The position numbers were made by a program, and so were the translations under genes. The notes beneath the pieces were generated by a model, which made no database searches, was not told where the DNA came from, and worked only from the letters and a program-made list of their open reading frames with translations. A stretch of DNA of 64,000 nt, taken from the NCBI GenBank assembly GCA_024644235.1, contig JAHELJ010000005.1, positions 110,234 to 174,233 of the forward strand. The letters are read 5' to 3'. Below, piece after piece: positions 14,916-24,543 of this stretch (its first letter is position 1; each line of letters starts with the position of its first letter). This stretch comes from Lewinellaceae bacterium. GTDB taxonomy: Bacteria > Bacteroidota > Bacteroidia > Chitinophagales > Saprospiraceae.

Positions 14916-16055
14916 CTACCGATCTTCGCCTTGCGCCCAGTATTTTTTCATGATTTCCAGAACCCGGTCAATTGGCAGAGCTTCGATGGTGTTTCCATCC
15001 CTTCCCTGCATCGTTTCTGCAGCGAAAAGTGAATTCAAGATAGCCTCTTCAGTCGATTCGATGGTGGCAAGAAACAAAGGAGACATGGCATCATTATGCA
15101 GCACCGTAATTCGATGTGTGTTTGAACCACTTTGATAAGAAACAAGGTTTTCTGGCGCTACAGAGAGGGCAATGACGTAGTCGCCGCTGCCATTAGACAT
15201 GATACCGCCAGTTCTTCCCAGACCTAGCATGGCTCTTTTTGCCATTCGTTCCAAGTTTCTAGTGGTAAGAGGTGCATCTGTGATCACTACAATCATGCAG
15301 GAACCATCTCCAGTACTTTGCAAATCATCTTTAAAAACATACTTATTCAACTCTTTACCTACCGGTACTCCGTTGATTTGCAGTACCCCTCCAAAATTAG
15401 TTTGAACCAACACACCGACAGTATATCCTCCTAACGAGGACGGCAGTACCCGGGAAGAGGAACCAATACCCCCTTTAAACCCAAAGCAGACCGTTCCCGT
15501 ACCCGCTCCGACATTCCCTTGCTCCACTGGGCCATCGCTGGCATTTTGAATGGCTTCTACTACAGAAGTTTCGGTTACGTGCCGGCCTCTGATGTCATTC
15601 AGATAGCCATCGTTGGTTTCACCGACGACCGCATTAACTGAACGCACATCTTCATTACCGGAAAGACCTAGGGTGTAAGTGATGAGTGCATTGGATGCAG
15701 TGGGAACACTGAGGGTATTTGTCAAGATGATCGGCGTCTCGACATTTCCCAACTCCTTCACCTGGGAATATCCGGCTAGCTTTCCGAAGCCGTTGCCAAT
15801 ATGGATGGCTGCCGGCACCTTTTGCTGGAAGAGATTTCCTGAATGGGGCAAGATCGCGGTCACTCCCGTGCGAATGCTTTCGCCCTTGATCAAAGTCACA
15901 TGCCCAACAGAAACTCCCGATACATCGGTGATGCTATTATTGATTCCGGTTTTAAGTATCCCGATTTCAATACCGTAGTCTCTCAATAGCTTGGTTTGAG
16001 AAAAAGCATTGGCTGCAAGGGCAAATAAAAGCCCGAATATGAGATATTTAGTCAT
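14916..16055 (-). CDS. P1 (S58, DmpA/BapA-like) family peptidase, secreted
   Basis: This is a 379-residue protein with a signal peptide (MTKYLIFGLLFALAANAFSQ). The family motif GTGTVCFGFKGGIG is at about 185-198. A Gly-Ser pair at 251-252 (GDGSCMIVVITDAPL) aligns with the autoproteolytic site that makes the nucleophile serine in DmpA. A conserved NGSGD follows at 288-292. P1 peptidases are N-terminal-nucleophile aminopeptidases acting on D- or beta-amino acid peptides; the substrate here is unknown. Its first ~75 codons are duplicated at 21435-21683, flanking the island to its right. It is intact, unlike its paralogue at 24567. Confidence 0.88.
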   Translation of the reverse strand: MTKYLIFGLLFALAANAFSQTKLLRDYGIEIGILKTGINNSITDVSGVSVGHVTLIKGESIRTGVTAILPHSGNLFQQKVPAAIHIGNGFGKLAGYSQVKELGNVETPIILTNTLSVPTASNALITYTLGLSGNEDVRSVNAVVGETNDGYLNDIRGRHVTETSVVEAIQNASDGPVEQGNVGAGTGTVCFGFKGGIGSSSRVLPSSLGGYTVGVLVQTNFGGVLQINGVPVGKELNKYVFKDDLQSTGDGSCMIVVITDAPLTTRNLERMAKRAMLGLGRTGGIMSNGSGDYVIALSVAPENLVSYQSGSNTHRITVLHNDAMSPLFLATIESTEEAILNSLFAAETMQGRDGNTIEALPIDRVLEIMKKYWAQGEDR

Positions 16056-16080
16056 CAGGAGTGCTTAAGTTACGGAAGAT
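15832..16080. repeat. Direct repeat A bounding the island (P1 peptidase 5' end)
   Basis: About 249 bp are nearly identical (roughly five mismatches) to 21435-21683 at a constant offset of 5603. The repeat covers codons 1 to ~75 of the P1 peptidase plus 25 bp upstream of its ATG. Homology stops abruptly on both sides. Confidence 0.93.
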
Positions 16081-16174
16081 GATTAACGTATGGAGCAGAT
16101 TCTCCAAATGCCTGTTAATCATATCACCTCTCAACTATGAAGCTAAGGCGACGACAACTGCAATAGGGTGGGAG

Positions 16175-17002
16175 TTATTTAGATTCATTGTTTTCAAAAA
16201 GGCCAGGTTTACGCCACCACTTCTCAATATTTGTGGATTTTTGATAATCATCGCTTTTTACCCATTCAAATATGTTTTCGACAGAGGTATCAACGAATTG
16301 ATCCCAGTCTAATCTTAATTGTTTTTCTGTAAAACTATATTTATGTCCAAAATTATTCTCCTTGTCGACTCTACCGAGTTTCTTGCTTAGTTCTTGGTGG
16401 CGTCTAAAAGTTCTTTCGAATGCAAGATATTTATAATGTAGATTTAGGATTTCATCCCGTTCAGTATATCTAATATTTCCAGTTGGATCTGCAGTGTGCC
16501 TTCCAACTGAGAAATTAGTTTCCATAATCTGGTTTGGATCCAATATACTCAATTTGTTCATTTGTCTCCAGGAACTTCCACTAGTCATGGTTTTAACTAA
16601 ATTGCTTCCTTGAGGTGGAAAGAACTTTGATATCATTTGAAAACCGAGTGCAGGCAGTAATGTCACACCTGCCTTTGTGCATTCTGCTAGATAATTACTG
16701 ATTTTTTCATGATAAAGAAATTCATCAATGGCTGTAATAATTACCCAATCAGCTATTTGCCTACTTTTTTTCCAAACAGAATCATGAAATGTCTTGGCAC
16801 TAAGTACGTAGGAGTTGTTCTTTACTTGGAAAGGATAGCACCTCACTTTTGGATGGTTATTGAGTATTTTTAATGTATCATCATTAGAATTATTATCATA
16901 GATATGATATTCTGTAATCCATGGGTCATAATGTCTGAAGAAAAACTCAAGCATCTCTGCTTCGTTCCAACATATGCTATAAAGATGGATTACTTGCTTC
17001 AA
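16175..17002 (-). CDS. Glycosyltransferase family 2-like protein
   Basis: This is a 275-residue protein. It opens with a short beta strand and CWNEAEMLEFFFRHYDPW, then YHIYDNNSNDDT and later a DEF motif (AIDEFL, about 92-97) that serves as the DxD-like metal site. This matches the compact GT2-like 'glycosyl transferase family 2_4' group found in surface-glycan loci. It is the last gene of the seven-gene island operon, starting 1 bp after the preceding stop. Sugar donor and acceptor are unknown. It lacks a membrane segment, so it is probably cytoplasmic. Confidence 0.75.
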   Translation of the reverse strand: MKQVIHLYSICWNEAEMLEFFFRHYDPWITEYHIYDNNSNDDTLKILNNHPKVRCYPFQVKNNSYVLSAKTFHDSVWKKSRQIADWVIITAIDEFLYHEKISNYLAECTKAGVTLLPALGFQMISKFFPPQGSNLVKTMTSGSSWRQMNKLSILDPNQIMETNFSVGRHTADPTGNIRYTERDEILNLHYKYLAFERTFRRHQELSKKLGRVDKENNFGHKYSFTEKQLRLDWDQFVDTSVENIFEWVKSDDYQKSTNIEKWWRKPGLFENNESK

Positions 17003-17003
17003 C

Positions 17004-17648
17004 TTAGAAGTTTAAGTGATTGACCTTTAAGGTTTTTGCAGGATTTCCAACAACGACCGTATTATTATCGACATTTTTTGTTACCACACTTCCAGCACCT
17101 ATAACGGCATGACGACCAATTTGAATACTGGGTAGAATGACAGCCCCAGCTCCAATAAGAGTACCTCTTCCAACTTGTACATTACCACCGATCGTGACAC
17201 CAGGTCCAATTGAGACATAATCATCGAGGAATAGATGATGGCCAAGACAGGCTCCACGGTTGATCAAAATATGATTTCCAATCTTACTACACGCACCAAG
17301 CACTACTCCGGAATTTATAAAGCAAGCATTTCCGCAACTAAAATGTTTAGGTAGAATTGACTGCTTAGAGCAAAGAAGTCCATATGGCTTTAGACTGTAG
17401 GATAAAGCCTCCTGTGTTGCTTGAAATCTATTTATTGGCGTGAATAAGGGACAAATAAAATCTGTTGATTGACTATAATTAATTTCTGAAATGTCAATGA
17501 TCTTTTGTCGATTTTGGGCAAAACATTCTATTCCCACTAGATTTATGACAATAGCTTGGATCTCAATATGATTGTGAAAGCAGATCTCTTCGTAATCAAC
17601 TATTAAGGGACTTCCGGCTCCAAATAAAATTATTGATTTTGAAGACAT
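17004..17648 (-). CDS. NeuD/PglD-like sugar O/N-acyltransferase (hexapeptide repeat)
   Basis: This is a 214-residue protein. A short N-terminal Rossmann-like segment (SIILFGAGSP) is followed by left-handed beta-helix hexapeptide repeats over about residues 100-205 (for example VSIGPGVTIGG, TLIGAGAVILPS, AVIGAGSVVTKNV). It closes with GNPAKTLK, the usual end of NeuD-type acetyltransferases. With the DegT aminotransferase just upstream (19-bp overlap), the natural reading is acylation of the amino group of a nucleotide-linked amino sugar. The acyl donor may not be acetyl-CoA, given the BKACE enzyme in the operon. Confidence 0.82.
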   Translation of the reverse strand: MSSKSIILFGAGSPLIVDYEEICFHNHIEIQAIVINLVGIECFAQNRQKIIDISEINYSQSTDFICPLFTPINRFQATQEALSYSLKPYGLLCSKQSILPKHFSCGNACFINSGVVLGACSKIGNHILINRGACLGHHLFLDDYVSIGPGVTIGGNVQVGRGTLIGAGAVILPSIQIGRHAVIGAGSVVTKNVDNNTVVVGNPAKTLKVNHLNF

Positions 17649-18721
17649 TTGTAAATAATATCTGAGATCGATTCAAAATTGCATGCAAGAATTTCAGGCT
17701 GTATTGGTATGGAGACTAGTTCCTTGACAGCCTTTCTAGCTATTGGAATTTCACGACAATAGGATCTAAAAAAGGGATGATCAACCATTGATTTGGAATA
17801 GTGAATGCCAAGGTGGACACCATATTTTGCTGCATCCCTAATAAATTTTTGACGATTTGGCACTCTTAGAGGGTATTGGTGATATGTCGCTCCCTCAATC
17901 AGGGGAGGTAGAAATTCAACAAAATTTGATAGATGATCCGAATACTTCTGTGCAAAAGTTTGGCGCGATCGGTTTCTTTTTTCAAGCAACGGCATAATTA
18001 AATTCAAGATAGAGGCTTGTAGTTCATCTAGTCTCGAATTAATACCAAACTGATAAATTGTACCATTCTCACTGAATCCATAATGGCGAGCACTACTCAG
18101 ATATTCCTTTGTTTGATGATCATTAGTGATGACCGCACCACCGTCTCCCATGCATCCGATATTCTTTGTCGGATAGAAGCTGAAAGCTGATGCTTTCCCA
18201 AAGGTGCCCACTTTCTGGGAAGAGAAGTGTGAACCTAGTGCTTGGGCACAGTCCTCAAGTAGAATAATCCCAGACTCTGAGCAAATCTTCGTGATTTTGT
18301 CCATCTCGCAAGGAAAGCCATGAAGATGAACTACAATCACTGCTTTTGAATCTCGATCGATAGCTTGAAGGATCCTTTCTGGAGATATGCAATAGGTCGG
18401 GGCTTTTACATCAACAATCACTGGAGTGGCTCCAGCCATCAAAATTGATTGAATTGTTGCTGGGGCTGTAATTGAAGTAGTGATTACTTTATCTCCAGAT
18501 CCGATAGCGCATGCCTTCAGAGCTAAGAACAGCGCATCTGTACAGGAATTCACCCCTATGCAGTACTTTGCATCGTGATATTGAGCAAAATTTTTCTCGA
18601 ATAACCGCACTTGATCTCCAAGAATATATGACTCGCTCTGAATGAACTTCTGAAAAGTTGCTATTAGATCAGATTCTATTTGCTTGTATAAGAGCCCCGG
18701 TGATGAGTATGTCAGATCCAA
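17630..18721 (-). CDS. DegT/DnrJ/EryC1-family sugar aminotransferase
   Basis: This 363-residue PLP enzyme belongs to the nucleotide-sugar aminotransferase family. GVNSCTDALFLALKA (56-70) is the family's PLP-phosphate region, HLHGFPCEMD is at 132-141, EDCAQALG is at 156-163, and the Schiff-base lysine Lys186 is in SFYPTKNIG. The closest type by eye is the 3-amino sugar aminotransferase group (FdtB/QdtB), and an FdtA-like cupin is encoded two genes upstream, which fits a 3-amino-3,6-dideoxyhexose route. It overlaps the sulfotransferase start/stop by 10 bp. No dTDP-glucose synthase or dehydratase is in the window, so those steps must be encoded elsewhere. Confidence 0.87.
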   Translation of the reverse strand: MDLTYSSPGLLYKQIESDLIATFQKFIQSESYILGDQVRLFEKNFAQYHDAKYCIGVNSCTDALFLALKACAIGSGDKVITTSITAPATIQSILMAGATPVIVDVKAPTYCISPERILQAIDRDSKAVIVVHLHGFPCEMDKITKICSESGIILLEDCAQALGSHFSSQKVGTFGKASAFSFYPTKNIGCMGDGGAVITNDHQTKEYLSSARHYGFSENGTIYQFGINSRLDELQASILNLIMPLLEKRNRSRQTFAQKYSDHLSNFVEFLPPLIEGATYHQYPLRVPNRQKFIRDAAKYGVHLGIHYSKSMVDHPFFRSYCREIPIARKAVKELVSIPIQPEILACNFESISDIIYKCLQNQ

Positions 18722-19458
18722 GTCTTTTCCTTCAATTCTTTATAAAGTTCAAAATTTGATTTTAGACATAATTGTTCTTTCTGAATGCTATTAAGTTTTA
18801 TAAGTCTATTTTTTTCTAGTTCTTTCCTCCGCATTTCTTGTTTTGCCCAGTAGTCTTGAACCTGAATAGTTATTTTAAGATTTAGAAATCTGAAAATAGA
18901 TTCCAGAATTTTTTTCTCTTTAAACAAATACTCGTGATGAATAACAAGCACGTTGTTTGGAAATTGATCTAAAGCGGATATGGTGAAAGTTAGTGAATTA
19001 TTCCATTCATCAATAGCCTCACGGTATCCCCTATCGTACTCCCACTTACCTGAGTTTCTAATTGAGTGCATTTTTCTGTTTTCCCATGACTGACAGACAT
19101 CAATAATATTTCTTAGTAAGAATATAATTTTAGCATTAGGGAAGAGCTTAAATATGTAATCATATCTCTTGTACAAACTTGGGATTTTATCTCCAATATA
19201 TTTAAACTTTTCCCAATTTGAAAAGGCATAATCGTAGTATCCATCTAAGATCTCGTGATGAGTATCTCCAGACAAAAGTTCCTTGCTAAATCGAACAGGG
19301 GTGAAGAGTGTAGGTGTGAAAAGATTGTAATTGTTTCGAAATAGGTAATTATATCGTTCTCTACCAAGACAAACACTAGTATGAGCTCTCAGCAGTTCGG
19401 TCATTATGCTTGTACCAGATCTAGCACAACCACATACAAACAAGTATTGAAAGCTCAT
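18712..19458 (-). CDS. Sulfotransferase (Sulfotransfer_3-like)
   Basis: This is a 248-residue PAPS-dependent sulfotransferase-like protein. The 5'-phosphosulfate loop CGCARSGTSIMTELL occupies residues 9-23, and the 3'-phosphate-binding strand IIFLLRN is at 111-117 with Arg116. No signal peptide or membrane segment is seen, so sulfation would occur in the cytoplasm on a precursor. It is one of two sulfotransferase-like genes in the same operon, which implies a sulfated glycan or lipid product. The acceptor is unknown. Confidence 0.8.
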   Translation of the reverse strand: MSFQYLFVCGCARSGTSIMTELLRAHTSVCLGRERYNYLFRNNYNLFTPTLFTPVRFSKELLSGDTHHEILDGYYDYAFSNWEKFKYIGDKIPSLYKRYDYIFKLFPNAKIIFLLRNIIDVCQSWENRKMHSIRNSGKWEYDRGYREAIDEWNNSLTFTISALDQFPNNVLVIHHEYLFKEKKILESIFRFLNLKITIQVQDYWAKQEMRRKELEKNRLIKLNSIQKEQLCLKSNFELYKELKEKTWI

Positions 19459-19820
19459 GAAGAATTGTTATTCTGTTGATAGGGTTCTTCTGCGAAAACT
19501 AGTAGAATTGTCTCTGGATCAAAATTCTTTAACCGGAGAAAGTTGTCTTTTTTAACATAAAGTATGGTATCAGGGTTTGATAGTATAATAGTTTCTTGAT
19601 GATTTATAATCGCAGAAACAGAGCCAATCAATGCAATTAGAGCAAGTCCACACGAAGCAACATGATTTGCCCTCTCTTGGTCCGCAGGCACATTAAAGAT
19701 AGTAAATGTACGTTTTGGTTTAAAAGGTAGATCTGAAAACTCCCAGACAATGAGGGACCCTCTGTAATCGGTGTATTTGGGCATTCTAATTAGAGTGAAA
19801 TTTGAATCAAAGGTATTCAT
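19455..19820 (-). CDS. FdtA/WxcM-type cupin with altered active site
   Basis: This 121-residue single cupin resembles dTDP-6-deoxy-hex-4-ulose 3,4-ketoisomerases (FdtA, QdtA) and WxcM C-terminal domains. TDYRGSLIVWE and FNVPADQERANHV match the family's start and active-site strand. The family normally has RGxHAH with two catalytic histidines. Here the stretch is RANHVAS, with His53 kept and the second histidine replaced by Ala55. It may be a non-isomerising relative or use another base. It overlaps its neighbours by 4 and 14 bp. Confidence 0.72.
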   Translation of the reverse strand: MNTFDSNFTLIRMPKYTDYRGSLIVWEFSDLPFKPKRTFTIFNVPADQERANHVASCGLALIALIGSVSAIINHQETIILSNPDTILYVKKDNFLRLKNFDPETILLVFAEEPYQQNNNSS

Positions 19821-20580
19821 ACTGGAAGTTCATGAAGTCTTGCATGTAGTGTTTGTGAAAAAGGTTGCCCAGTTCTGAATTAACCAGTACTGTTTTGAGG
19901 AGAGGAGATTGGAGAGAAGTGTCCTGCTCGGAATAATTCTCCCACCCAGGGATCATTTGAAATATTTGTCTCGAAGCCCCTAGCTGAATGAACAATCTCT
20001 TCAGATCAGCCGAAAAGTCTTCGATCTTCCCAATAAAATTGTATTCGATTTGATCGAAAAGTGCGACTGCTGACTGGCTACGGAAGTGAATATCCAATTT
20101 ACTATCATCAAATGAACAGACGTAATAGATAAATTGCTCAAAGGTGGGCAAGTCCGAAGAATTTTCTTGTCCGCAGAATCTTGCAATTTGCTCAGATATA
20201 TTACTATACTTCTTAGGACCAACAATCTTATTATAGTAGGATGATAATATTCTTGTGTATGGGTTTCGCACAAAAATAAATCGCGTAACTAAATCAGAAT
20301 TAAGAAGAAAGGACTGTTCTTCTAAGTTAAATTCAGTGATAGACGCGACAAAGTCTCCCTTTTCTCTATCTCTTCTATGTATTGCATTGACACCTGAAGG
20401 AACATTGAAACCACAATGTGCCTGCAGCATTTTTTTAACTTTGGTGCAACCAGCTTTGGGTATGTTTATGTAGAGAAATCTTTTTTCAATACTTGCCCAA
20501 GAATCATACTCTAATCTACGATAGTTCTCTTCGATCAAATCGCTGGTTGGAATCTTTGATTTTGGAATTTTATTATTCAA
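19807..20580 (-). CDS. Sulfotransferase family 2-like protein
   Basis: A PAPS-binding loop YINIPKAGCTKVKKML occupies residues 37-52, and the 3'-phosphate motif FIFVRNPYTRILSSYYNK is at about 101-118. Both are characteristic of the Sulfotransfer_2 (chondroitin/dermatan-type) family, which is rare but known in bacterial polysaccharide loci. I chose the TTG at 20580, which overlaps the BKACE stop codon and suggests coupling. An ATG at 20649 would overlap BKACE by 77 bp, giving 280 residues. It carries no membrane anchor, unlike eukaryotic members. Confidence 0.75.
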   Translation of the reverse strand: MNNKIPKSKIPTSDLIEENYRRLEYDSWASIEKRFLYINIPKAGCTKVKKMLQAHCGFNVPSGVNAIHRRDREKGDFVASITEFNLEEQSFLLNSDLVTRFIFVRNPYTRILSSYYNKIVGPKKYSNISEQIARFCGQENSSDLPTFEQFIYYVCSFDDSKLDIHFRSQSAVALFDQIEYNFIGKIEDFSADLKRLFIQLGASRQIFQMIPGWENYSEQDTSLQSPLLKTVLVNSELGNLFHKHYMQDFMNFQYEYL

Positions 20581-21403
20581 TACCAATAATATTTCTAGCC
20601 TCTGTTGGGGTAGCAATTTCACGTCCAAGTTCCTTTGCAATCCTGGCAACTCTTTCTACTAACCTTATATTTGTTGCATGTTCCTTAGTTGACCAAGAAA
20701 AGAACGGATTATCTTCAAGACCAATACGTACATGACCACCCAAGGCAATACCAATTGATGTAGCAGCTAATTGAAATCTACCTATTCCTCCAATCGCCCA
20801 AGTAGATCCATTCGGTAGACTATTAATCATGGCTGCAATATTTGTTGCATTAAGTGAAGCCGATCCCAAAGAACCAAAAATCAAATTAAAATAGTATGGA
20901 GGCTTGAGTAAATTTTTCCTAGAAAGGTAGCTAGCATAGTTGATCATACCTGCATCGAAGATTTCAAGTTCAGGCACAATAGATAACTCACTCATTCTCA
21001 TTGCAAGACTCCTAATAGATTCGGGACTATTAATACTTGATTGTGTTGGGAAATTAAGTGATCCCAGTGTCAGAGAAGCCATGTCAGGTTTTGGGATTGA
21101 CATAAGGCAGTCACTCCTTTTAGTAATATCGGACCAATTTCTTCCAGAAGTACTAACGACAATAATGATGTCTTGATCAATGGATCTGATCTCTGAAATG
21201 ATCTCTGAATAAACTTCCTTCTTCCATGTTGGTTCATTGTCGGAACCTCTAGCGTGAAGATGTACCATTGAAACTCCCAATTCATGGCAACTTTTCACAT
21301 CTGATACGATTTCTTTGATCTTAATGGGAACGAATGGATTGGACTCCCTAGTGGGAACCATTCCGGTTGGGCATAGGTTGATGATAAGTTTAGAATAGTC
21401 CAT
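20573..21403 (-). CDS. BKACE-family (beta-keto acid cleavage) enzyme
   Basis: This 276-residue TIM-barrel protein belongs to the DUF849/3-keto-5-aminohexanoate cleavage family. It opens INLCPTGMVPT, has the zinc histidines in VHLHARG (His48, His50) and the late zinc/catalytic stretch HVRIGLEDN. Family members condense a beta-keto acid with acetyl-CoA to give acetoacetate and a new CoA ester. It is the first gene of the island operon, starting 4 bp downstream of the truncated P1 fragment. Its presence in a sugar-modification operon is unusual. It may supply or consume the acyl group used by the NeuD-like transferase; that is inference. Confidence 0.85.
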   Translation of the reverse strand: MDYSKLIINLCPTGMVPTRESNPFVPIKIKEIVSDVKSCHELGVSMVHLHARGSDNEPTWKKEVYSEIISEIRSIDQDIIIVVSTSGRNWSDITKRSDCLMSIPKPDMASLTLGSLNFPTQSSINSPESIRSLAMRMSELSIVPELEIFDAGMINYASYLSRKNLLKPPYYFNLIFGSLGSASLNATNIAAMINSLPNGSTWAIGGIGRFQLAATSIGIALGGHVRIGLEDNPFFSWSTKEHATNIRLVERVARIAKELGREIATPTEARNIIGIE

Positions 21404-21406
21404 ATT

Positions 21407-21658
21407 TCAGTCGGAGCTAACAGTATTAGTAGACAGATTCCCTGAATAAGGTAAGATCGCGGTCACTCCCGTGCGAATGCTTTCGCCCTTGATCAAAGTC
21501 ACATGCCCAACAGAAACTCCCGATACATCGGTGATGCTATTATTGATTCCGGTTTTAAGTATCCCGATTTCAATACCGTAGTCTCTCAATAGCTTGGTTT
21601 GAGAAAAAGCATTGGCTGCAAGGGCAAATAAAAGCCCGAATATGGGATATTTAGTCAT
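21407..21658 (-). pseudogene. Truncated duplicate of the P1 peptidase 5' end
   Basis: The 83-codon frame begins MTKYPIFGLLFALAANAFSQ and follows the peptidase at 14916-16055 almost residue for residue up to ILPYSGNL. It then runs into unrelated sequence and stops (NTVSSD). Only the signal peptide and the start of the domain remain; no catalytic region is present. Its stop lies 3 bp before the BKACE start codon, so if transcribed it would act as a translated leader of the island operon. Confidence 0.9.
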
Positions 21659-21683
21659 CAGGAGTGCTTAAGTTACGGAAGAT
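21435..21683. repeat. Direct repeat B bounding the island
   Basis: This is the counterpart of 15832-16080, with the same length and orientation and only about five differences, including T/C, GG/AA and A/G changes. Sequence beyond 21683 (toward the epimerase gene) differs from that beyond 16080, so the two repeats mark the limits of the inserted segment. Confidence 0.93.
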
Positions 21684-21740
21684 TATAAAGCAATATTGAG
21701 AATATTATACAACTCCAAACCCAACTAAATTGATGTCTCA

Positions 21741-22940
21741 ATGCTGAGTCGAAGTACCAAAGTTGCCAATTATGTCGAGATGTATACAAATGCATTATTG
21801 ACAGATGTAATTCCTTTCTGGGAAAAGCATTCTATCGATCAGGATCATGGAGGGTACTTTACTTGCCTGGCACGAGATGGATCTGTTTACGATACCGATA
21901 AATTCGTTTGGTTGCAGGCCCGGCAGATTTGGATGTTCTCAAAGCTTTATAATGAGGTTGATGCCCGCAAAGAATGGTTGAATGTGGCACGTCATGGAAT
22001 CGATTTTCTGGACCGACATGGACAAGATGGAAACGGTCATTATTATTTCTCCCTCGCTCGCACCGGAAGTGCTTTAACCCACCCATTTAATATTTATTCC
22101 GATTGCTTTGCAGCCTTAGCCTGGAACGAATATGGTAAAAGCACACATAGTGTCAAGTGTGAGAGTAAGGCAAAGGAGGCATTTAATAATTTCCTATCAC
22201 GTAGAACAAATCCCAAAGGGTCATTTGAAAAGACCACCGGAATTCGTCCGCTCAGTAATTTTGGTCTTTCTATGATGACAGCCTATCTGGCTTTCGAACT
22301 AGAAGAACTGATTGGTAAGGAACAAGCAATTACAATATATCAAGAATGTTTTCATGATATTCTGGAGAGGCACTATGACAAAAACCTTGGATTTATCAGA
22401 GAATATATTCAACCGGATGGAAAAATATCAGACTGCTTTGAAGGACGGTTGATCAATCCGGGTCATAATCTCGAGGCCCTTTGGTTTCTGATGGTCATAT
22501 GTGAACGTATAGGCGAAGTAGAAATAACGGGCCAATTGACAGATATGGCAATCAGGATACTGGATCAAAGTTGGGATGAAATACATGGAGGAATTTATTA
22601 TTTTCTGGATAGCAAGAAAGCTCCCTTGCAACAGCTTGAGCACGATCAAAAACTTTGGTGGGTACACCTGGAAGCACTGATCGCTCTTGCGATGGCCTGG
22701 CGGCTGACCAGGAGAGAAGATGTGATGACCTGGTTTGATCGTATTCATGATTACACCTGGGGGCATTTTCCCGATCCGGAGTACGGAGAATGGTTTGGCT
22801 ATCTGGACCGGCAAGGTCAACCACATGTGACCCTCAAGGGAGGAAAATGGAAGGGGTGCTACCATTTGCCACGGGCGCTGTTTTTAATTTCAAAAAATTT
22901 GAAATTAATTGAAAAAAATATTGAATTAATAGATTATTGA
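21741..22940 (+). CDS. N-acylglucosamine 2-epimerase family protein
   Basis: This is a 399-residue (alpha/alpha)6-barrel protein of the AGE/renin-binding family. Family residues visible are WLQARQ (58-62), the histidine of NPGHN (His242), and a late GCYHLPRAL histidine. AGE enzymes epimerise N-acetylglucosamine/N-acetylmannosamine; close relatives act on cellobiose or mannose, so substrate specificity is uncertain. The sialidase gene follows 13 bp downstream, which favours an amino-sugar role in sialic acid use (ManNAc to GlcNAc). It lies just outside the right edge of the island. Confidence 0.87.
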   Translation: MLSRSTKVANYVEMYTNALLTDVIPFWEKHSIDQDHGGYFTCLARDGSVYDTDKFVWLQARQIWMFSKLYNEVDARKEWLNVARHGIDFLDRHGQDGNGHYYFSLARTGSALTHPFNIYSDCFAALAWNEYGKSTHSVKCESKAKEAFNNFLSRRTNPKGSFEKTTGIRPLSNFGLSMMTAYLAFELEELIGKEQAITIYQECFHDILERHYDKNLGFIREYIQPDGKISDCFEGRLINPGHNLEALWFLMVICERIGEVEITGQLTDMAIRILDQSWDEIHGGIYYFLDSKKAPLQQLEHDQKLWWVHLEALIALAMAWRLTRREDVMTWFDRIHDYTWGHFPDPEYGEWFGYLDRQGQPHVTLKGGKWKGCYHLPRALFLISKNLKLIEKNIELIDY

Positions 22941-22953
22941 CATTGGTAAGAAA

Positions 22954-24543
22954 ATGATAGAAATTAATTATTATTTATTCGTATTGGCATTAATTTTTGG
23001 ATTTAATGGAACAGCTTCCATCGAAATTAATATTTCAAAAATAACAATTAGCTGGGGCGATCAAGTTTACCCCGTTTTAAAAGGAAAGGATAAAAATCAG
23101 TTTGCACAACTGAAAATTGTCAACGAGGGACGAGAGGCAGTACCATTAAATCAGATTACTCTCACTTTGGTCAACGCTGAGAATATTAATGACATCGATT
23201 CATTCAACATTTATTCGGCTCTCCAGCCGGGAGAAGTTTTACCGCAAAAAATATTTGGTGAATCCAATAATGCCGGCAAATCAATCGTCTTTCATGGCAA
23301 TGAAAGTATCTTACCAGGTGAGAATTATTTTTGGATCACATGTAGCCTCACCGATAAGGCCAGCCTGAGTCGCAACATTAGCATCAAGTGCTCGGAACTC
23401 ATCATTAATAAGAAGAAAGTAGATCCTCAATTGCCACCAATAACACGGCAGATAGGATGGGCCTTTCGACAGCATCAGGATGATGATGTAGATACTTATC
23501 GTATTCCGGGCCTTGTCACCACCAACCGGGGCACCCTGATTGCTGTATATGATATCCGCCGAAATAGCAGTGTTGATCTGCAGGAGGATATTGATGTGGG
23601 GATGCAACGAAGTACCAATGCCGGTGAGACCTGGAGCCCGATACAGTTGATCATGGACATGGGCGAATGGGGTGGAAAACCGCAAGGCGAGAATGGCATT
23701 GGTGACCCATCCATTCTGGTTGATAAAGTAACCAATACCATATGGGTCGCTGGGGTATGGGCACACGGCCACCCAGATGAGCGAAATTGGTGGGCATCAA
23801 GACCAGGACTAGATCCAGAAGAGACCAGTCAATTTATGCTAGTGAAGAGTGAAGACGATGGATTTAATTGGTCTGAACCCATTAACATTACCCAACAGAT
23901 CAAGGATCCCAATTGGCATTTACTGTTGCAAGGACCTGGTAAAGGCATAACAATGAGTGACGGAACCTTGGTTTTTCCTGCACAGTTTAAAGACGCGGAT
24001 CAGATGCCGCACGCCACCATAATTTACAGCAAAGACCGGGGAGAGACCTGGAACATTGGCACCGGAGCGAAATCCAATACCACGGAAGCCCAGGTAGTAG
24101 AACTGAGCGACGGATCGCTTATGCTGAATATGAGGGATAATCGTGGATCCGGTCCCCAGGGTCCGAATGGTGAAGGAGCAAGATCAGTGATGGTGACGAG
24201 AAATCTGGGCAAGACCTGGGAGAAACATCCTTCTTCTGGAAGCGCCTTGCCCGAACCCGTCTGTATGGCCAGCCTGATTCAGCATAATATTGATGATAAA
24301 ACGATATTGATATTTTCCAATCCGGCAAACACCTTCAGCCGGCAGGATATGACCATCAAAATTAGCTTCGATGAAGGTTTAACCTGGCCATCAAAGTATC
24401 ACACCCTGATTGACAACGGCCGCGGTCGAGGATATTCCTGCCTTACCAGTATTGATGAAGAGACCATTGGCATATTGTACGAAGGAAGTCAGGCAGACCT
24501 GATCTTTCAGAAATTCAAATTAGAGGAGTTGCTGAATAACTGA
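22954..24543 (+). CDS. Exo-alpha-sialidase (GH33), secreted
   Basis: This is a 529-residue protein with an N-terminal hydrophobic signal (LFVLALIFGFNGTAS) and a beta-sandwich N-domain (about 25-165). It is followed by a six-bladed sialidase propeller. The YRIPGL motif (182-187) gives the first arginine of the triad, and Asp-box repeats recur: STNAGETW, SEDDGFNW, SKDRGETW, TRNLGKTW and SFDEGLTW. The YEG near the C terminus fits the catalytic tyrosine region. It should release terminal sialic acids from glycans outside the cytoplasm. It is in an operon with the epimerase upstream, the classic pairing for sialic acid scavenging. Confidence 0.9.
   Translation: MIEINYYLFVLALIFGFNGTASIEINISKITISWGDQVYPVLKGKDKNQFAQLKIVNEGREAVPLNQITLTLVNAENINDIDSFNIYSALQPGEVLPQKIFGESNNAGKSIVFHGNESILPGENYFWITCSLTDKASLSRNISIKCSELIINKKKVDPQLPPITRQIGWAFRQHQDDDVDTYRIPGLVTTNRGTLIAVYDIRRNSSVDLQEDIDVGMQRSTNAGETWSPIQLIMDMGEWGGKPQGENGIGDPSILVDKVTNTIWVAGVWAHGHPDERNWWASRPGLDPEETSQFMLVKSEDDGFNWSEPINITQQIKDPNWHLLLQGPGKGITMSDGTLVFPAQFKDADQMPHATIIYSKDRGETWNIGTGAKSNTTEAQVVELSDGSLMLNMRDNRGSGPQGPNGEGARSVMVTRNLGKTWEKHPSSGSALPEPVCMASLIQHNIDDKTILIFSNPANTFSRQDMTIKISFDEGLTWPSKYHTLIDNGRGRGYSCLTSIDEETIGILYEGSQADLIFQKFKLEELLNN

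Follow-up and report, generated by a model that had tools for sequence, protein, structure and literature searches.

A block of seven genes at 16175-21403 of the 64,000-nucleotide stretch of a Lewinellaceae bacterium genome analyzed here (contig JAHELJ010000005.1; hereafter the window) encodes an enzyme of the BKACE family together with a NeuD-like acyltransferase, amino-sugar biosynthesis proteins and two sulfotransferases. We found that BKACEs of this group are recurrently paired with acyltransferases in bacterial genomes and on viral contigs, that the two are fused in a single open reading frame (ORF) in one case, and that the catalytic residues of the BKACE are intact. This recurrent pairing suggests a hitherto undescribed way of decorating sugars. 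Our proposal for the window, which we regard as evenly balanced between right and wrong, is that the BKACE makes a non-acetyl acyl-coenzyme A (acyl-CoA), from which the NeuD-like enzyme would transfer the acyl group to a 3-amino-3,6-dideoxy sugar that would later be sulfated.

Within the order to which this bacterium belongs, 14 of 298 genomes, its own included, contain a match to the BKACE at 1e-60 or better. Among 13 neighborhoods from the order, a NeuD-type gene directly abuts the BKACE gene in 11, lies about 3 kb away in L017, and was not seen near the BKACE gene of L016, which is on a short contig. An alignment-based scan of named genomes recovered 505 BKACE relatives; the best 80 were analyzed further, and several of these coincide with the 13 neighborhoods. 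In 67 of these 80 loci an acyltransferase is encoded on the BKACE strand no more than 400 bp from the BKACE gene (31 of the NeuD type and 36 of the GNAT type), and nine more show a NeuD gene 0.9-3.4 kb away, one of them on the opposite strand. No acyltransferase was found in the other four, namely L037, L042 and L092 (the latter two with a short contig or flank) and L101, which is partly masked and gave no Pfam hit. Membership in the GNAT family was confirmed by Pfam for all four partners tested, and a structural model of one of them (mean predicted local distance difference test score, pLDDT, 86.7) matches GNAT structures, a list headed by VipF that also includes a glucosamine N-acetyltransferase. 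As controls we used 14 plasmid BKACEs picked from 40 of the 680 matching records, leaving out H21 as the best match of the window BKACE. None of the 14 has a NeuD or GNAT neighbor, either by annotation, for which the gene table is incomplete, or by a DNA seed scan; their surroundings include genes of protocatechuate, carnitine and CoA-ester metabolism.

The NeuD-type partners also carry a distinguishing motif. At the histidine of the beta-helix, which we take to be catalytic, a GHH triplet occurs in 36 of 40 NeuD-type proteins encoded next to a BKACE and in 8 of 12 encoded nearby, as against 4 of 23 others, and two of those four come from BKACE operons cut by the end of the locus. The association gives a Fisher p of 5e-10 without these two and 9e-9 with them, relatedness being ignored in both figures. 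Genes for aminotransferases of the DegT family are found up to about 5 kb from the BKACE-acyltransferase pair both as FdtA plus FdtB-type sets and as other DegT types, which suggests that the BKACE follows the acyl step and not the position of the amino group. As a separate observation, two similar GNAT-like genes, the second read by eye, stand in tandem behind the BKACE gene in Algibacter marinivivus (L098:8839-10253).

In one bacterial family (f38), 7 of 61 genomes have a BKACE match at 1e-60. Here a single 451-aa ORF combines a GNAT and a BKACE domain (L117:1492-2847); at other loci of this family the BKACE lies in ORFs compared by length only, at 451-510 aa. No sugar pathway was recognized around the fusion ORFs read. 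Another locus of the same family (L160) has in a row the genes for an FdtA-type cupin, a DegT aminotransferase, a NeuD-like acyltransferase, a BKACE and a GT2 protein; identity to the window proteins is 34% for the cupin, 38% for DegT, 39% for NeuD and 45% for the BKACE, and among the loci compared it is the best match for the window cupin, DegT and NeuD proteins. No sulfotransferase was seen among its genes. Fifteen rows of family f38 were dropped as catabolic controls, a role given to them as supposed lysine-fermentation fusions, because the GNAT-BKACE fusions and the L160 operon make them members of the group.

In a phylogenetic tree of 110 BKACE rows, 95 acyltransferase-associated or related sequences are separated from 15 of catabolic type with a Shimodaira-Hasegawa-like approximate likelihood ratio (SH-aLRT) support of 99, in a quick search without bootstrap that carries a long-branch warning. 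Left out were rows L106 and L023 (fragments), L092, L177 (a divergent sequence in which a number of the catalytic residues are missing) and duplicates that did not differ over the region compared, and the NeuD label covers the nine loci with a more distant NeuD gene as well as L016, where, on its short contig, none was seen. Two unrelated acyltransferase folds, NeuD-type and GNAT, have a BKACE as partner, and on this tree the type of partner must have switched four times or more.

The pairing extends to viral contigs. A scan of these returned 47 BKACE loci, 30 of them closer to the group, and in 27 of the 30 an acyltransferase is adjacent (19 NeuD and 8 GNAT), near-duplicates (L187-L189, L211-L212) being counted. 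An adjacent acyltransferase was not found in L194, L206 and L213, and the 17 weaker relatives (L215-L231) gave no seed-matched acyltransferase. Neighbors of the viral pairs include genes for WbqC, PhoH, a terminase and a short DegT protein, with DegT in 12 and WbqC in 2 of the 30 modules. Terminase-like or PhoH-like frames lie within 5 kb in 7 of the 30, which argues for a phage origin of these seven; viral contigs can hold host DNA. It is possible that the viral BKACE-NeuD modules represent phage-encoded glycan acylation. On the contigs L195-L212 some of the BKACE-NeuD modules have PhoH close by and, near it, genes for WbqC, a glycosyltransferase-like protein or a short DegT protein. Such short DegT proteins, of about 200 aa as against about 360 aa at full length, are encoded near the pair at L027:11652-12293, L195:5425-6021 and L203:5434-6072.

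These results bear on a finding that, according to the sequence-only reading of this DNA, would refute it: that the BKACE gene is an unrelated passenger, in this case a catabolic gene carried in the operon. The family is best known from catabolism and the gene lies outermost at the 5' end of the operon, both of which would fit such an origin. However, this explanation is contradicted by the recurrent adjacency, the fusion, the five-gene counterpart, the recurrence on viral contigs and the common side of the tree, a pattern seen in none of the 14 control BKACEs, and we regard it as highly improbable. Gene order and phylogeny thus indicate that the BKACE belongs with the acyltransferase.

Kce H46, H48 and E230, which we take to be the zinc ligands, and E143, R226 and D231, presumably catalytic, are conserved without exception across the group (99 of 99 rows, with duplicates counted) and in the window row too. 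The position of Kce E14 is V or I in these 99 rows, with two gaps. The predicted structure of the window BKACE (pLDDT 91.8) is closest to 3no5, 3chv and 3fa5 (Z 39-40), followed by Kce (Z 38). The window protein matched four NCBIfam models and reaches the cut-off of none of them; for example, it scores 265.8 bits against a cut-off of 382 for NF052387 (3-keto-5-aminohexanoate cleavage enzyme), for which ten other members score 188-233 bits, and 192.5 bits against 350 for NF053568 (3-oxoadipate:acetyl-CoA acetyltransferase). Arg88 of the window BKACE is present in 114 of 114 group rows, in BKACEs from pca operons (L166, L168, L170) and a benzoate-type cluster (L165), and in 3no5; it is absent from Kce, the carnitine-like type and L171-L176. 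This arginine, common to some BKACEs of aromatic catabolism, is a weak hint that the substrate may end in a negative charge.

The seven ORFs of the block all lie on the minus strand, running from 21403 down to 16175 (Table 1), and their Pfam matches are to the families named in the sequence-only reading. Successive genes overlap by 4-19 bp and the last pair is 1 bp apart, so that they are plausibly read as one predicted operon; the longest ORF of sulfotransferase 1 runs 77 bp into the BKACE gene.

Table 1. Genes of the seven-gene block and the flanking repeat (positions in the window)
Feature	Position	Strand	Evidence and remarks
BKACE-family enzyme, 276 aa, first gene	20573..21403	-	PF05853 275.1 bits (cut-off 24.8), full length
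Sulfotransferase 1, Sulfotransfer_2	19807..20649	-	PF03567 94.6 bits; true start uncertain
FdtA/WxcM-type cupin, putative 3,4-ketoisomerase	19455..19820	-	PF05523 75.5 bits (cut-off 23)
Sulfotransferase 2, Sulfotransfer_3	18712..19458	-	PF13469 69.8 bits
DegT aminotransferase, QdtB/FdtB-like	17630..18721	-	PF01041 315 bits
NeuD-like left-handed beta-helix acyltransferase	17004..17648	-	Hexapep PF00132 57.5 bits; GHH at catalytic His
GT2-like protein	16175..17002	-	Glyco_tranf_2_4 PF13704 39.9 bits
Direct repeat copy 1	15832-16086	.	255 nt, 5' end of intact S58 peptidase gene
Direct repeat copy 2	21435-21689	.	97% identical to copy 1 but truncated; upstream of BKACE

FdtA/FdtB/FdtC and QdtA/QdtB/QdtC constitute pathways for dTDP-3-acylamino-3,6-dideoxyhexoses (dTDP, deoxythymidine diphosphate), and the window resembles them in combining a cupin, a QdtB-like DegT aminotransferase and a beta-helix acyltransferase in one operon. 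It differs from them in its VioB/NeuD-like acyltransferase with GHH, in a cupin without the second His, and in the additional BKACE and two sulfotransferases. The DegT protein matches the solved structures 7b0d (246 bits) and QdtB 3frk (220 bits), with an SFYPTKN segment aligned to QdtB. The nearest solved relative of the acyltransferase is VioB (7txp), with its catalytic His aligned to the SH segment of VioB; as it scores 132.3 bits against TIGR03570 (NeuD/PglB/VioB), under the curated cut-off of 160.8, we refer to it as NeuD-like only. Sulfotransferase 2 is nearest to the solved protein-tyrosine sulfotransferases (37 bits). For sulfotransferase 1 no solved relative was found at E 0.1; it carries, as read by eye, PKAGCT and RNPYTRILSSY, which we take to be motifs of enzymes using 3'-phosphoadenosine 5'-phosphosulfate (PAPS). 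Since other contigs of the genome encode a dTDP-glucose 4,6-dehydratase (RmlB; 454.7 bits against a cut-off of 365.1) and an adenosine 5'-phosphosulfate (APS) kinase (231 bits), this organism probably has the means to produce PAPS as well as the nucleotide sugar.

Reading the steps from the gene families, we envisage that the cupin would isomerize the dTDP-4-keto-6-deoxyglucose obtained via RmlB, and that the DegT enzyme would aminate the isomerized sugar at C3. The BKACE would supply the acyl donor through the reaction of its family, in which a beta-keto acid and acetyl-CoA give a new acyl-CoA and acetoacetate, and the NeuD-like enzyme would use this acyl-CoA to N-acylate the 3-amino group. 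The GT2-like protein would then transfer the acylated sugar, and the two sulfotransferases would add sulfate from PAPS. In this scheme we infer which way the BKACE reaction runs, which acyl group it yields (one that may end in a negative charge), which sugar receives it and where that sugar goes. The sequence-only reading had envisaged an N-acylated, sulfated surface glycan or lipid; our results support an operon for amino-sugar N-acylation that includes sulfotransferases, while a surface glycan or lipid as product and any particular acyl group stay conditional.

Several observations weigh against this proposal. Both His residues of the FdtA HxH motif matter for 3,4-ketoisomerase activity; in an alignment to FdtA/WxcM structures the window cupin keeps the first and lacks the second, which is likewise missing from the L160 cupin. 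No gene for making a beta-keto acid was seen in the operon. The window BKACE has no match in the GenBank phage collection. Its best plasmid match, from Streptomyces camelliae (55.5%), is nearer to it than any Bacteroidota BKACE found, which makes the window protein an atypical relative of the NeuD-paired core; for the L018 BKACE the best such matches come from Salmonella plasmids (49%). In both cases the matching gene belongs to a riboflavin-type cluster and has a methyltransferase next to it, with no acyltransferase shown, and none is shown for two BKACE relatives from Caballeronia either (42% and 40%). Finally, the position of Kce Tyr145 is Phe in 99 of 99 group rows, and the surroundings of the GNAT-type pairs lack the expected sugar genes; these last two points are taken up below. 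As to the plasmid clusters themselves, those of Streptomyces camelliae (L155:8735-16688) and Salmonella enterica (L232:9483-15850) have in common a gamma-glutamyltransferase, RibA, the BKACE, an S-adenosylmethionine-dependent methyltransferase and riboflavin synthase, with RibD and a major facilitator superfamily transporter in addition in L232 and RosB in L155, and look like a riboflavin-type antimetabolite cluster.

The phenylalanine raises the alternative that the BKACE, like BsfD, performs no cleavage and instead acylates or remodels a small carbon skeleton by a Claisen-type acyl transfer, with the acyltransferase using or competing for its product. In the available part of a preprint, Tyr at Kce position 145 is said to occur in all BKACEs, and BsfD, which has Phe there, to transfer acetyl instead of cleaving (PMC12871164). 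The riboflavin-type clusters of the best plasmid matches, which have no obvious place for a CoA-ester donor, would also fit such chemistry. Yet the same Phe is found in the BKACEs of pca operons and of the benzoate-type cluster that carry Arg88, contexts that suggest cleavage of beta-ketoadipate-like substrates, and beta-ketoadipate has, in the accessible part of one report, been suggested as the substrate for BKACE genes of pca operons (PMC8963497); the BKACE L164, encoded beside pcaF, has Tyr at 145 and no Arg88. Phe145 was accordingly dropped as proof of non-canonical chemistry, as pca-operon BKACEs carry it too. Further, BsfD is more distant from the group profile (136 bits) than 3no5 (209 bits) or Kce (193 bits). 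The mark of the BsfD type is an insert of ~20 residues after strand beta3 with Arg91; in the window BKACE, Arg88 lies in an SGR stretch. We regard BsfD-like chemistry as unlikely.

A different possibility concerns the acceptor: the pair might acylate a small amine or a lipid head group, the sugar genes of the window being a local combination and the product no surface glycan. In none of the 36 GNAT-type loci is there a seed-matched DegT, GT2, WbqC, FdtA or PMT-like gene at a distance of up to 5 kb, leaving ATP-grasp_ST aside, from which it follows that the acceptor of the GNAT-type pairs may not be a sugar; the surroundings of the fusion ORFs speak in the same direction. An ATP-grasp_ST-like gene is near 6 of these 36 loci, and in Winogradskyella (L054:9562-11790) the BKACE-GNAT pair is followed by an ATP-grasp gene of the sugar-transfer type, identified by Pfam, and a similar second one noted by eye. 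Against this possibility, genes of those five kinds are present within 5 kb in 26 of 38 NeuD-type loci, the viral modules include DegT and WbqC, and the other six genes of the window are all of glycan or sulfation type. We consider it improbable.

Sulfation was part of the sequence-only reading, and the window indeed encodes two sulfotransferase families in a genome with an APS kinase, yet neither belongs to the conserved core. A search of 60 relatives for sulfotransferase 1 gave a single positive genome, this one itself, and no match to either window sulfotransferase was seen near any of the 74 related loci counted. A Sulfotransfer_4 gene lies near the pair on one viral contig (L196) and in one metagenome-assembled genome (L072); an L199 protein considered as a further sulfotransferase had no Pfam match and was left uncounted. 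Because the sulfotransferases are unlinked to the pair in related loci, sulfation is best seen as an add-on to the core and not a conserved part of it. The seven-gene order was not found in other genomes in searches with the BKACE and sulfotransferase 1 only as queries. Our results support an acylation operon whose BKACE is tied to its acyltransferase and do not support a fixed seven-gene system.

The block has a GC content of 37.1%, as against 45.6% in the rest of the window, which places it within the lowest 0.06% of equal-sized windows across the 64 kb. Given this low GC and the direct repeat of 255 nt that brackets it, the seven genes probably arrived together as one unit. A search of the genome found only the two flanking copies of the repeat and no third; the repeat pair around the low-GC block is a likely insertion footprint. 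Diverging from the operon on the plus strand (21741-24543) are genes for an N-acylglucosamine 2-epimerase and a sialidase-like (BNR) protein.

Comparison with characterized or predicted systems points to what may be distinctive here. The group shares the fold, the zinc site and the catalytic residues with Kce and the BKACEs of pca operons, and Arg88 and Phe145 with the latter type. Unlike these enzymes, it lies on the other side of the tree, falls below the equivalog cut-offs and is linked to acyltransferases rather than to catabolic operons. BsfD, from the flavophos cluster, is likewise a DUF849 protein in biosynthesis with Phe at the Tyr145 position, but it has a phosphonate substrate, transfers acetyl, and has no acyltransferase partner described in the part of the preprint at hand (PMC12871164). 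In the R-group locus of the Flavobacterium psychrophilum O-polysaccharide, the enzyme predicted to place a dihydroxyhexanoyl group on an amino sugar is a PglD homologue (PMC6519341, available portion). By that prediction a dedicated non-acetyl acyl group is moved onto an amino sugar, as we envisage for the window; the acyl group, however, is there proposed to come from acyl carrier protein, ketosynthase and reductase genes, none of which is among the seven genes of the window, where a BKACE is found instead. A literature search turned up, judging by the entries it listed, no paper appearing to link BKACEs to glycan acylation, with most subscription papers outside its reach.

Based on these observations we propose, tentatively and as possible rather than probable, that the BKACE together with a NeuD-type or GNAT acyltransferase forms a general, horizontally moving N-acylation module of several bacterial phyla and phages, present as a fusion in one family, which would place undescribed, perhaps acidic, acyl groups made by a retro-Claisen reaction onto amino sugars, and to which the window would add two sulfations. 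The fusion and the standalone two-gene pairs make this reading directly testable, and a BKACE beside a GHH acyltransferase would be a two-gene marker for finding such N-acyl groups. If correct, it would account for a part of the unassigned BKACE family, and new N-acyl groups would be expected in surface glycans. A family whose known enzymes act mainly in catabolism would then have a large biosynthetic branch that sets bacterial and phage-encoded glycan chemistry.

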